Shown: piece by piece, positions 44,795-49,680 of the stretch | Position numbering within the stretch: the first letter of the stretch is position 1 | Layout of the letters: each line of letters opens with the position of its first letter | NCBI GenBank assembly: GCA_034521495.1 | Contig: JAXHMK010000010.1 | Coordinates: forward strand, 682,001-746,000 | From: Balneolaceae bacterium | GTDB lineage: Bacteria; Bacteroidota; Rhodothermia; Balneolales; Balneolaceae | Reading direction: 5' to 3' | Length of the DNA stretch: 64,000 bases | Notes under the pieces: model-generated | Told to the model about the DNA's origin: nothing | Databases searched by the model: none | The model's input: the letters and a program-made list of their open reading frames with translations, nothing else | Program-made: the position numbers and the translations under genes

Positions 44795-46582
44795 TCAAGC
44801 AATTGTTTTTGAATTTACAGCTTGGTCTCTGTATTGTAACTCGTATAATTTTCGATAAATTCCACCATCTTTTTGCACCAATTCCTGGTGTGTACCGGTT
44901 TCACGGATCTGTCCTTTATGCATCACCAATATTTTATCTGCACCCTGAATGGTTGACAACCGGTGAGCAATAACAATGGACGTTCGCCCCTGCATCATCT
45001 TCTTGCAGGCAAGCGAAACAAGTTCTTCCGTTTCGGAATCAACACTCGATGTCGCCTCATCTAAAATTAAAATTTTTGGATCATAAACCATAGCCCTTAC
45101 AAAACAAATTAATTGCCGCTGTCCCATTGATAACGATGCTCCCCGTTCCTGAAGTACAAAATCATAAGTACCCGGTAATTTTTTTATAAACTGGTGAGCT
45201 TCCACAGCTTTAGCAGCTTCAATCACCTGTTTCCGCGTTATATCTTTGTGCCCAAGGGTAATATTTTCTAAAACAGTACCTGAAAATAGAGCATTATCCT
45301 GGAGTACCAGGGCAAATTGTGAACGCAACTCTTTCAAAGATACATTCTTAATATTTGTTCCATCGAGCAATATTTTACCTTCCTGGATATCATAAAATCG
45401 TAATAAGAGATTAATCAGTGTTGTTTTTCCGGCACCCGTTGCGCCCACAACTGCAAGCAACTCACCGGGTTGCACATCGAATGATACATTATCAATAATA
45501 AGCTCTTCATCTGCATTATACCGGAAAGACACATTCTCAAACTCGATTTCTCCTTTAGCATTCTTCAGAGATTTACTCTTTGAGCTGTCTTTCACTTTTT
45601 TGGGCGTATCTAATACATCGAAAATGCGTTCGGATGAAGCCAGTGCGGATTGAAGTGTATTATATTTTTCCGAAAGTCCGCGAATGGGATTGAAGAATTG
45701 TCGAACGTATTGGATAAAAGCCAGGAGCACACCGAATGTAACATCTCCCATCAGCGCGCGTCCACCGCCGTACCAAACCACCAATGCCATCGCAAGGCTT
45801 GCAAACACTTCAACCAGCGGCCAGAATATGGAAAAATAAAATATGGTTTTGATGTGGGCTTTTCGGTGGTCCGCATTGATATCTACAAACTTCTCTTTCT
45901 CTTTTTCTTCACGGTTAAAAAGCTGAACCACGGACATCCCATTAATGTGCTCCTGCACAAAGGAATTCAGCCTGGCAATCTGGTCCCGAACTTCGAGGAA
46001 CGCGATACGAACCTTCCCTTTAAACCAAAACGTTGCATAAAACAGCATCGGGAGTACAAGTATGGAAACAACGGTCAGTTCCCAACTCATACTGAGCATA
46101 AAGAAAAGAATGAAGAATATCCGAAACAGATCCCCCACCATATTTACAATCCCATCAGAGAGAAGCTCACTCAGAGCTTCAATATCACTTGTAGTACGAG
46201 TAATCAACCGGCCGATGGGATTTTTGTCGAAAAACTGAACGTGGAGAGATTGAATTTTTTCAAATACAGCGTTCCGAATATTAAACAGAACTCCCTGCCC
46301 AAACCATCTTGTAACGTAGGTGTTGATGATGAGTACTAAAAATTCGCCTACCAGGGCTAACACCAATAATGTTATAATCCACATCAACCCTTCAATATCA
46401 CCGTCAACAATATAATCATCGACAGCAATCTGGGTTAACTTCGGACGTACCGTTCCCAGGTATGAGGCTGTAAGTGTAAGCGCAATGGCAAACACTGCCC
46501 ACCAACGGTAAGGTTTAAAAAAGTAATAAAGCCGCCGAATCAATACAGAGTCGACGGCTTCAGTTTCACGTTTAGATCTCAA
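44795..46582 (-). CDS. ABC exporter half-subunit with canonical catalytic glutamate
   Basis: A 595-residue type IV ABC exporter half: six membrane helices (~20-320), then a nucleotide-binding domain. Walker A is GATGAGKTTLINLLL (~384), the signature is the variant LSMGQRQ (~489) and Walker B is ILILDEATSSVD with the catalytic Glu. The LSxGQRQL signature resembles the YheH/BmrD side of heterodimeric multidrug exporters. A TTG at 46582 is used because an in-frame stop precedes it and no ATG lies nearby. The likely partner is the half-subunit at 47878. Confidence 0.92.
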   Translation of the reverse strand: MRSKRETEAVDSVLIRRLYYFFKPYRWWAVFAIALTLTASYLGTVRPKLTQIAVDDYIVDGDIEGLMWIITLLVLALVGEFLVLIINTYVTRWFGQGVLFNIRNAVFEKIQSLHVQFFDKNPIGRLITRTTSDIEALSELLSDGIVNMVGDLFRIFFILFFMLSMSWELTVVSILVLPMLFYATFWFKGKVRIAFLEVRDQIARLNSFVQEHINGMSVVQLFNREEKEKEKFVDINADHRKAHIKTIFYFSIFWPLVEVFASLAMALVVWYGGGRALMGDVTFGVLLAFIQYVRQFFNPIRGLSEKYNTLQSALASSERIFDVLDTPKKVKDSSKSKSLKNAKGEIEFENVSFRYNADEELIIDNVSFDVQPGELLAVVGATGAGKTTLINLLLRFYDIQEGKILLDGTNIKNVSLKELRSQFALVLQDNALFSGTVLENITLGHKDITRKQVIEAAKAVEAHQFIKKLPGTYDFVLQERGASLSMGQRQLICFVRAMVYDPKILILDEATSSVDSETEELVSLACKKMMQGRTSIVIAHRLSTIQGADKILVMHKGQIRETGTHQELVQKDGGIYRKLYELQYRDQAVNSKTIA

Positions 46583-46595
46583 AACACACTACTAA

Positions 46596-47813
46596 TTAGA
46601 AACGGTCAAAATTATCGAATGGAGTTCGCGGCGTAATGTGCTTTGGCGGCCTTGATGAGCCTTGATTTTCATCATTATCATTTCTCTTTCGGTCTGGCCG
46701 TTTACGCTTTCGTTCGCTCGAGGAACTGCTGCTTTTACTTCGTCTTTTCCTGTCGGAGGAAGAACTCTTGCGCTTTCTGAATCGCTTCTTACTTTTATCA
46801 GATTTGCGGCTGCGTTTCTTACTCTTCTTACCACCGCCCGAACTGCTGTTCGCTTCTTTGATATAGACCTTCTGTTGCACAATGCCTTTTTCTTGCGAAG
46901 GATTGGTGTAGATAGGCCGTAATTCAGTAGCAAGCCAGGCTGGAAAGAATTTATCGCGTGCTTCACGTAACAGGACAAACGGATTGGTATACCGGGCTGA
47001 AAAATGGCCGATAACCAAAAGTTTTGTCTGAGCTTCATTAGCTACCCGAGCTGCATCTGCTGACGTTGAATGCCCCGTTTCGGCAGCTTTTTCAGCCAAT
47101 GACTCACTGAATGTTGCTTCGTGATAAAGGATATTCGTATTCTTAGCCAATTCCACAGCATTGGGATGATATTTCGTATCCGTCACATAGGCAAAGCTAT
47201 CACCGGGGCGTGGGTGACCTACAATATCGTAGGACTTCACTATGGTGCCGTCTTCCAGTTCTACATCTTCGCCGGCTTTGAGAGCTTTATATTGTGCATC
47301 TTCACTAATTCCCATCGCTTCAGCTTTTTCAGCATCCACTTTTCCGGGCCTGTCTTTTTCCTGGAACCGGTAGCCAATACAAAAAGTGGTATGGTTTAGC
47401 GGTCGGGCTTCTACATAATATTCATCTTCATCTACCACCCGTTCTTCCTCAAAATCTTCCTCAACTTCAACAAAGTTAATGTCAAAATTTAGGTGAACAT
47501 TTGCGAAATTCAGGTTCCACTCAACATAATCTTTAATTCCTTTCGGACCTATGATATTGAGTGATTTTTCCCGCCGTTGTAACTGCAGAGTAGAAAGAAG
47601 TCCTAACATTCCGGAGTAGTGATCCATATCGAAATGGGAAATGAAGATATTTTCAATCTTCGACCGTTTGAGCCCGGCCTGTAACATCCTCATTTGAGCG
47701 CTTTCACCACAGTCGAAAAGATGTACATCTCCTTCTCTCCAAAGTGCAACGGATGGTAAGTGTCTGGTTGCAGTGGGCGTTGCAGATGCAACACCTAAGG
47801 GTACAATAATCAT
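46596..47813 (-). CDS. rnz: RNase Z with altered metal motif and basic disordered tail
   Basis: A 405-residue metallo-beta-lactamase nuclease family member; RNase Z cuts tRNA 3' trailers. Residues 1-~305 form the catalytic domain: LGVASATPTATRHLPS at the start, then SHFDMDHYSGMLGL, the exosite-like region, TDTKYHPNA (~203), GHSTSADAARVANEA (~240) and GHFSARYTNP (~262). The canonical HxHxDH is here HFDMDH, so the second metal-ligand His (position 62) is Asp. The last ~80 residues are almost all Lys/Arg/Ser (KKSKKRSRKSDKSKKRFRKR), which is unusual. It lies between two ABC half-subunits. Confidence 0.9.
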   Translation of the reverse strand: MIIVPLGVASATPTATRHLPSVALWREGDVHLFDCGESAQMRMLQAGLKRSKIENIFISHFDMDHYSGMLGLLSTLQLQRREKSLNIIGPKGIKDYVEWNLNFANVHLNFDINFVEVEEDFEEERVVDEDEYYVEARPLNHTTFCIGYRFQEKDRPGKVDAEKAEAMGISEDAQYKALKAGEDVELEDGTIVKSYDIVGHPRPGDSFAYVTDTKYHPNAVELAKNTNILYHEATFSESLAEKAAETGHSTSADAARVANEAQTKLLVIGHFSARYTNPFVLLREARDKFFPAWLATELRPIYTNPSQEKGIVQQKVYIKEANSSSGGGKKSKKRSRKSDKSKKRFRKRKSSSSDRKRRSKSSSSSSERKRKRPDRKRNDNDENQGSSRPPKHITPRTPFDNFDRF

Positions 47814-47877
47814 TGTTTATCTCCCGTATGTTTTATGGGCTTTTGCCGTTCAAACAAAAGGTCCCCGTTTTTGTGTT

Positions 47878-49680
47878 TTATATTTGAGCCAATTCTTGTT
47901 CAAGAAGTTGCTTGCGGTACATATCAGAGTAACGTCCTTCGCCATCTATTAATTCATCATGAGTACCGGCTTCAATAATTGAACCATCTTGAATATAAAA
48001 AATTGTATCGGCGTTTTTAACAGTAGAAATTCTATGTGATATCATAATTGTTGTTACGTGTGACAGCTCCACCCTCAAATGCTCCAATATGGCATCTTCT
48101 GTTTTTGTATCAACGGCACTGAGCGAATCGTCGAAAATAACTATGCCGGGTTTTTTTATAATAGCCCTGGCTATTGCCGTCCTCTGTTTTTGACCCCCTG
48201 AAAGAGTAATACCTCTTTCTCCAACAAGTGTCTCAAATTTTTTCTCAAAATCCAAAATATTCTGCAATACTTCTGCACTATCTGCCGCTTCTTCAATCTG
48301 TTTCATCGATGCATCTTCAACACCGAAAGCTATATTTTCTTTCACCGTTGTTGAAAATAAAAATGTTTCCTGGGGAACATACCCGATCAGATCTCTCAAA
48401 TCCCGAAGCCTCCACTCTTTTATATTTACCCCGTCTATGAGAATCTCTCCCTCGGTTGGATCAAACAACCTGGGAATTAAATTTACAAGTGTTGTTTTAC
48501 CTGCACCGGTTCGTCCTACAATAGCAACATTACTTCCAGCCGGAATTTTCATACTTACATCCTTAATTGCGTATTCATCAGTTCCGGGATATTTAAAACT
48601 CACATTCCTGAACTCTATCTCACCGTTAACTTCTCCTATTGTTCTCTTCGGAGATTCATCTTTGTCCAGTATTTCAATCGGTTCTGATAGCATATTATTG
48701 ATTCTCTCCCAGGAAGCCAGAGATTTTTGAAGTGTATTTACGGTATATCCCAACGCAGCAACCGGCCAGGTTAAATACGCAACATAAATCACAAACTCCG
48801 CAATGTTACCGATGGTAATGGCATCGTCTATCACCATTATACCACCTTTCCAAACCACAATTACAACGGACAGACCAATTAACAAATTAAGTGTGGGATG
48901 AAATAGTGATTCTACAAGATCGAGACGAAGTTTCTTTACGCGATAATCATCACTTTCTTTTTCAAACTTCTCTTGCTCGTATTCCTGGCGGTTGTAGGCT
49001 TTAATAAGCCGGATACTGTTGAACGCCTCATTTGCTTTGCCTGCAATTCTGGAATATTGTTCCTGAATGATTACCTGGTATTTATTGATATATCCGCTCA
49101 CCCAGTAAGCAAAAGCTGAAAGAAATGGCAGCGGTAACAGTGCCCAAAACGTTAGCGTGGGGTTTACAATAATCATCATTGCGATAATAAATCCAGCTCT
49201 TGTAAAAGTGTTGATGGTATACATCAGAACGGGTCCAAAATACTCACGAACCCGTGCAACATCTTCTGTAGCCCGGGTGTAAGTTTCACCTGATGTATTT
49301 GTAGCAAAATAACGTTGCGGAAGCTCAAGTAACTTATCCATCACCTTATTCCGAATATCAAACTCAATTTTTCTTGAGCTTACAATGAGAGTTTGCCGGG
49401 TGGCGAAAAGAAGAATGCCGTAGAGCAGAACAGTACCTACCAGCAATAAAGAATTATAAGCAAGAATTTCACCTGCTTCGCTTGAAAAAAGAATTTCCAT
49501 CATGGAATCATACTCAGCCGAGTATTCTTCTCCCAACAACTCGACTTCATCCATTGTCCGACGTATAAGTACCGGTATCCAGATTAGAAAGAAATTAGAT
49601 CCGGTTAGAAAGAGTGCTCCAAGAAGGAGAATCCATTTATACTTTTTTAAATACCGGTTAAGTTTTTTAAAGGAGTCCAA
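47878..49680 (-). CDS. ABC exporter half-subunit with degenerate Walker B
   Basis: A 600-residue type IV ABC exporter half: six membrane helices (~15-320), then the nucleotide-binding domain with Walker A GRTGAGKTTLVNLIP (~394), canonical signature LSGGQKQ (~498) and Walker B IVIFDDSLSAVD. The catalytic Glu is replaced by Asp, the hallmark of the degenerate site in heterodimeric exporters such as TM287/288 and BmrCD. A TTG start at 49680 is forced by an upstream in-frame stop. A heterodimer with the subunit at 44795 is strongly suggested, with drugs or lipids as candidate substrates. Confidence 0.93.
   Translation of the reverse strand: MDSFKKLNRYLKKYKWILLLGALFLTGSNFFLIWIPVLIRRTMDEVELLGEEYSAEYDSMMEILFSSEAGEILAYNSLLLVGTVLLYGILLFATRQTLIVSSRKIEFDIRNKVMDKLLELPQRYFATNTSGETYTRATEDVARVREYFGPVLMYTINTFTRAGFIIAMMIIVNPTLTFWALLPLPFLSAFAYWVSGYINKYQVIIQEQYSRIAGKANEAFNSIRLIKAYNRQEYEQEKFEKESDDYRVKKLRLDLVESLFHPTLNLLIGLSVVIVVWKGGIMVIDDAITIGNIAEFVIYVAYLTWPVAALGYTVNTLQKSLASWERINNMLSEPIEILDKDESPKRTIGEVNGEIEFRNVSFKYPGTDEYAIKDVSMKIPAGSNVAIVGRTGAGKTTLVNLIPRLFDPTEGEILIDGVNIKEWRLRDLRDLIGYVPQETFLFSTTVKENIAFGVEDASMKQIEEAADSAEVLQNILDFEKKFETLVGERGITLSGGQKQRTAIARAIIKKPGIVIFDDSLSAVDTKTEDAILEHLRVELSHVTTIMISHRISTVKNADTIFYIQDGSIIEAGTHDELIDGEGRYSDMYRKQLLEQELAQI

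Follow-up and report, generated by a model that had tools for sequence, protein, structure and literature searches.

The window, a stretch of 64,000 nucleotides from a Balneolaceae bacterium, encodes a ribonuclease Z (RNase Z) in which a histidine of metal-binding motif II is replaced by aspartate and the chain continues into a long charged tail. Is this protein a working tRNA 3′-processing enzyme, and what could the two changes mean for its metal and its partners? The metal-site residues of RNase Z are, to our knowledge, generally treated as fixed. The gene, its arm region and its neighbors are listed here.

46596..47813, minus strand: RNase Z gene, 405 amino acids, ATG to TAA, from the open reading frame, TIGR02651 and its being the sole protein match in its own genome.
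47199..47357, minus strand: flexible arm (exosite) region, presumably about residues 153-205, full length by gap-free alignment to 1y44.
44795..46582, minus strand (same strand as RNase Z): downstream ABC exporter half, Pfam PF00664 and PF00005.
47878..49680, minus strand (same strand as RNase Z): upstream ABC exporter half, Pfam PF00664 and PF00005.

Against NCBIfam TIGR02651 (ribonuclease Z, equivalog; cut-off 292.95) the window protein reaches 315.3 bits, and it is homologous to the B. subtilis RNase Z (1y44) over residues 3-296 with an E value of 3.9e-53. When its own genome (97.4% complete) was searched with the protein, a single match was found. The TIGR02651 profile gave five, the window gene at 3.1e-94 and four others that lie beyond the matches listed, which extended down to about 7e-12. 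The window protein is the only RNase Z-scale match of this genome. Among named genomes the closest locus was from Rhodohalobacter sulfatireducens, and the named-genome loci belonged nearly all to Balneolaceae or Balneolales. The two same-strand ABC exporter halves flank RNase Z (44795-49680 in the window) in each of the 47 loci examined, which include 39 distinct ones. Like the RNase Z enzymes of B. subtilis and E. coli (TIGR02651; 1y44, 2cbn, 4gcw), the window protein has the other metal and catalytic residues and the flexible arm. However, it reads HxDxDH where they read HxHxDH, and it carries an 85-residue tail beyond residue 320. Judged from its sequence, it belongs with RNase Z as a variant and differs from the canonical HxHxDH form. 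An AlphaFold model from 10 sequences was weak (mean pLDDT 59.2, about 30 in the tail) and uninformative on docking or metal geometry; its C-terminal helix (pLDDT about 30) was left out of the argument. The best Foldseek match to the model, 2fk6 (E 2.3e-25), merely repeats the family assignment.

The active-site positions and their B. subtilis counterparts are as follows.

47619..47636, minus strand: motif II HFDMDH, residues 60-65, in which the Asp62 codon (47628-47630) replaces that of the metal-ligand His.
47391..47393, minus strand: His141, metal ligand (B. subtilis His140).
47178..47180, minus strand: Asp212, which we take to be the bridging metal ligand (B. subtilis Asp211).
47070..47072, minus strand: His248 of GHST, probably the catalytic His by analogy with PNGM-1 (B. 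subtilis His247).
47004..47006, minus strand: His270 of GHFSARY, metal ligand (B. subtilis His269).
47700..47702, minus strand: residue 38 of the DCGE-x loop, Ser in the window, also in a conserved motif and likewise switched in Balneolales.

Asp62 aligns with His65 of the B. subtilis enzyme, a ligand of the M1 metal site, bearing out the initial report, made from the sequence-only reading, that the second His of the metal motif is Asp. The same reading listed GHST and GHFS as later ligands that remain. Both are present and His270 of GHFS is a ligand, but His248 of GHST would be catalytic rather than a ligand; its counterpart in PNGM-1, His257, is described as the catalytic His in the accessible parts of two papers (PMC6882493, PMC7404133). 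We aligned 152 sequences, 79 from Balneolales and 73 from other Bacteroidota. The columns of His60, Asp64, His65, His141, Asp212, His248, and His270 are invariant (152/152). Column 62 is Asp in all 79 Balneolales versus His in all 73 of the other Bacteroidota. Residue 38, presumably near the metal site, is Asn in 78 of 79 Balneolales versus Gly in 72 of 73 outgroup sequences. Residues 2, 77, 172, 197, 293, and 303 also switch along with column 62.

The protein had been framed as a single oddity. This was wrong, as motif and tail together are the fixed state of the whole order Balneolales. All 99 RNase Z sequences read from Balneolales have HxDxDH (79 distinct ones from five families and 20 from further genomes), as H[L/M]DGDH in the deep families of the order and mostly as HFDVDH, HFDTDH or HFDMDH in Balneolaceae. 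RNase Z from other Bacteroidota, sampled within the class and across the phylum, has HxH[G/A]DH in 93 out of 93 cases (HxHGDH in 33/33 and 40/40, HxH[GA]DH in 20/20). The long charged tail accompanies the motif in all 98 Balneolales sequences whose ends are not lost at a contig border, so the co-occurrence in relatives that had been proposed as a check was found throughout. The outgroup lacks both the Asp motif and the tail (0/93 for each); neither is common elsewhere among the Bacteroidota read, and the refuting condition named earlier, that motif and tail are common in other RNase Z, failed on these sequences. Matches came from 100 Balneolales genomes, of which 98 were read; the 99th sequence is from a named MAG (L075). 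A partial sequence lacking the motif region (L077) is omitted from the motif counts, two genes split over contigs (G001 and G009) were unread, and the genomes without a match (G022, G051, and G055) have assemblies 81-89% complete. At the class level, matches at E values of about 1e-13 to 1e-4 (for example in family f10) are other metallo-β-lactamase proteins by score and were left out, as were some strong matches (for example G087, G105, G134, and G179).

On a tree with 112 rows, the Asp group corresponds to one change with a branch support of 100/100. Repeating the tree with the trait column masked again gave one change (SH-aLRT 100). The nearest outgroup consists of two genomes from a neighboring family (f6), with His at motif II and no tail. 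Long branches meet at the node of the Asp group, so which family is its sister can be stated with less confidence than that there was a single change. By this phylogeny the variant RNase Z appears to have arisen once and to be lineage-wide in Balneolales. The enzyme is a known one; what is new is an order-wide variant of single origin with a changed metal ligand and a docking-type tail. A literature search, with most subscription literature outside its scope, found no paper joining 'Balneolaeota' with 'RNase Z' or 'Balneolales' with 'ribonuclease', and among the matches listed nothing on point was found for a C-terminal extension or disordered tail of a bacterial RNase Z.

The tail has two parts, a charged linker and a conserved tip.

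46638..46853, minus strand: basic low-complexity linker, residues 321-392, with Lys, Arg and Ser at 50 of 72 positions and a net charge of +23.
46767..46787, minus strand: semi-conserved KRFRKRK element in the linker (F[RK]x[RK]), recurring across Balneolales linkers.
46599..46637, minus strand: conserved C-terminal peptide ITPRTPFDNFDRF-COOH, residues 393-405, near-invariant in Balneolales.

Among 339 open reading frames of at least 120 amino acids from the window and a further 400 kb of its genome, the window RNase Z ranks first for Lys, Arg and Ser in its last 80 residues (fraction 0.61, the next being 0.40). The description of the final ~80 residues as almost entirely Lys/Arg/Ser fits the 72-residue linker but not the last 13 residues, which form the distinct conserved peptide. 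Beyond the column of residue 314, Balneolales sequences extend by 57-235 residues (57 in a contig-cut sequence) versus 0-16 in 33 outgroup sequences. Counted from the H-x-S-x-R-Y landmark, the window protein has 130 further residues and 20 further Balneolales have 130-175, versus at most 50 in the outgroup. The latter lengths were measurable in 37 of 40 and 20 of 20 outgroup sequences; three of the 40 had no landmark match and their ends were read by eye. Balneolales linkers are rich in Arg, Ser, Gly, Asp, Lys, and Asn, with net charges from +8 to +40 and a median of +17, and in some families they turn into YDNRGGGG-like repeats. Across the order the linker ranges from about 60 to more than 200 residues while the tip stays fixed; it evolves fast and its detail is not conserved. 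The F[RK]x[RK] element is present in 68 of 78 Balneolales linkers versus a mean of 11.8 in shuffled linkers.

The Balneolales RNase Z chain ends in ITPRTPFDDFDRF-COOH or a near variant. In 77 uncut tails, Arg is found at -10 and at -2 in all 77 and Phe at -1 in 76 (Leu in one), with the full pattern in 72. This count omits one sequence cut at a contig end (L048) and one that ends in DRL on inspection (L075). The 20 further Balneolales sequences all end in [DN]RF, giving a [DN]R[FL] ending in 97 of 97 uncut sequences counted. Six of these 97 complete tails (L107-L109 and L249-L251) have lost the ITPR part and end in SSYRDQDRF or SSYRDHDRF, so the docking element can erode; this, like the variable length and detail of the tail, speaks against the docking reading. 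The ITP part is lost in L111 and L254 as well. At the DNA level the codons of the tip vary while its residues stay, with the Arg at -2 using all six Arg codons across 80 rows, in which the window is present twice. Between the window gene and its relatives, nucleotide differences fall almost solely at third codon positions in both the core and the peptide. A loose DNA pattern for the tip had exactly one match in 17 of 19 Balneolaceae genomes; a reversed control pattern had none. In 14 of the 17 genomes, where the locus is known, the match is the end of RNase Z; the other three are G313-G315. The two genomes without a match (G034 and G061) have RNase Z tips that diverged. No other protein with the C-terminal peptide was seen in the genome of the window.

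We give slightly better than an even chance to the reading that this is a working tRNA 3′-processing RNase Z whose M1 ligand was swapped toward a harder metal and whose tail tip docks on a partner. The enzyme would cut 3′ trailers from pre-tRNAs by the usual two-metal mechanism. With a carboxylate in place of one imidazole, the M1 site would favor a harder metal, likely Mn2+ (or Fe2+), over Zn2+. The basic linker may add non-specific RNA contact and reach, and the C-terminal peptide, whose terminal Phe is free, would dock in a pocket of a specific partner, keeping RNase Z on a tRNA-processing or ribosome-linked complex.

An effect of Asp62 on metal choice is plausible, supported by ComEC, the flavodiiron proteins and the Mn2+ rescue of a PNGM-1 mutant. 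ComEC has Asp in place of the same motif II His and, in the accessible part of the report, its domain is stabilized by Mn2+, not Zn2+, and the nuclease domain is active with Mn2+ or Co2+ (PMC8579336). The C-terminal domain of ComEC resembles the window RNase Z as a metallo-β-lactamase-fold nuclease with Asp at that position, the Mn2+ dependence being ComEC's. It differs in family, in its DNA substrate and in motif III, where the same text gives Asn in place of His (PMC8579336). The ComEC-type Asn is absent from all 152 sequences aligned, all of which keep His141. Because motif III also differs, the preference of ComEC for Mn2+ does not come from the Asp alone. Flavodiiron proteins have Glu at the same motif II position and bind two irons, as far as the accessible text describes them (PMC6033852). 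They share the acidic residue and a two-metal site in the same fold, but are redox enzymes, not nucleases, and have no RNase Z features. In the tRNase Z-like PNGM-1, the corresponding His93 binds Zn1; the available portions of two reports give weak Zn1 density for H93A (PMC7404133) and partial restoration of its RNase activity by Mn2+ (PMC6882493). A shift toward Mn2+ or Fe2+ is our best guess. The shift could be small because Mn2+ is often used in assays of canonical RNase Z too, according to part of another paper (PMC12663964).

The substitution could instead be neutral: the enzyme would be a di-zinc RNase Z of the ordinary kind, with Asp62 binding Zn much as His65 does, and its tail would only raise general RNA affinity. 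Asp ranks among the normal ligands of Zn, none of the other ligands has changed, and the linkers are strongly basic. The site may also tolerate change, as a B. subtilis H65A mutant is said, in the part of the source seen and citing other work, to retain residual activity (PMC12663964). However, the lack of any reversal in 99 sequences and the second switched position (residue 38, Gly to Asn) suggest a selected change, and a general RNA-binding tail leaves the near-invariant C-terminal peptide unexplained. We find a neutral swap rather unlikely.

The sequence-only reading proposed that the tail tethers tRNA precursors or other RNAs. The basic linker could do this, but the proposal leaves out the near-invariant C-terminal peptide, and this peptide speaks for a protein as the partner. 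A linker of changing length with a near-fixed tip suggests docking on a partner protein. The C-terminal tail of SSB is likewise a disordered linker with a short conserved tip and a terminal Phe; in E. coli SSB, according to an abstract, the linker is 56 residues long and the tip 9. The RNase Z tip, FDDFDRF with its conserved Arg, is not DDDIPF, and the likeness would be one of function, with no homology claimed. Mimicry of SSB by homology was considered and rejected. The SSB of the same genome ends in DDMDDDLPF and shares just an FDD-like stretch with the RNase Z tip; SSB is kept as an analogy.

Alternatively, the basic tail serves RNA binding alone, and the C-terminal peptide folds back on the enzyme itself or acts as a signal for its stability rather than docking on a partner. 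The basic RGG or YDNRGG-like repeats of some families fit such a role. In human ELAC2, the accessible part of the source describes a C-terminal helix that both contacts the tRNA acceptor arm and tethers the enzyme to TRMT10C. It offers a precedent for RNA contact as well as for a C-terminal RNase Z element tethering to a tRNA-processing partner, though ELAC2 is a long-form enzyme that uses a helix, not a charged linker with a tip. Against a tail that serves RNA only, a fixed tip on a linker of variable length suits a docking tether at least equally, and we regard the alternative as unlikely.

It is also conceivable that the ligand change disabled the nuclease, leaving an RNA-binding or regulatory protein while exonucleases finish the tRNAs. 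Mutation of the changed residue is a known route to inactivation; in our alignment the tRNA-bound 2fk6 chain carries Ala at the B. subtilis His65 position. Yet in the genome of the window an encoded CCA is absent from 31 of the 36 distinct tRNA genes read, and CCA-less tRNAs are the class matured by RNase Z, which is established knowledge and is stated in the accessible part of a paper (PMC8549757). The catalytic Asp64 and His248 are likewise invariant. Because the protein is the sole RNase Z, its catalytic residues are invariant and most tRNA genes lack CCA, loss of function is unlikely and the enzyme should be active; a non-nuclease role seems quite improbable. A sequencing or frame artefact, or a pseudogene, is ruled out with next to no doubt remaining, as the same frame, motif and tail recur in 99 Balneolales without stops inside the matches of relatives and with differences at third codon positions, so that the frame error put forward earlier as a possible source of the tail did not hold.

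The tRNA genes gave some further observations. Among 121 tRNA genes from seven Bacteroidota genomes (36 from the genome of the window, 43 from three other Balneolales and 42 from three outgroups; loci L149-L178 and L280-L287 for the window's genome, L288-L317 and L318-L347), a C directly follows the discriminator base in all 121 and CCA is encoded in 15. ARAGORN still reports five test tRNAs after the base following the discriminator is changed. The C may reflect a 3′-end rule common to Bacteroidota, in which RNase Z perhaps cuts after C74 or needs it. The C does not follow the Asp switch, as the three outgroup genomes with HxHxDH have it too, and the idea that the switch is tied to the tRNA 3′ end was rejected. 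The rRNA operons of the window's genome have tRNA-Ile and tRNA-Ala between the SSU and LSU genes (L153, L167), and a small SRP RNA (RF04183) lies directly after a tRNA-Ala gene (L153, L167). Several near-complete Bacteroidota genomes (class families f8, f10, and f18 and phylum family f27) are without a strong RNase Z match. Most f27 genomes, which are 1.8-3.0 Mb in size and 98-100% complete, have no RNase Z match at all.

Returning to the active enzyme with a harder metal and a docking tip, we tentatively extend this reading to a one-step rebuild into an Mn2+ (or Fe2+) RNase Z that is handed its substrates in a dedicated tRNA-maturation complex, the tip sitting on a partner and the linker bridging to RNA. 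This extension is possible but doubtful. Candidate partners for the tip would be the RNase P protein, the CCA-adding enzyme, an exonuclease, or the ribosome. The interest of the Balneolales RNase Z lies mainly in the fact that both changes are directly testable. It is a needed enzyme with a natural metal-ligand substitution across an order, where the Asp enzymes of Balneolales can be compared with the His sister enzymes of Rhodothermia, and such natural sisters let the metal choice of metallo-β-lactamase-fold nucleases be tested. The near-invariant C-terminal peptide is a ready bait for a bacterial tRNA-processing partner. If the maturation-complex reading is true, Balneolales would have a bacterial tRNA-processing assembly built on an RNase Z docking peptide, together with a naturally re-metalled active site.
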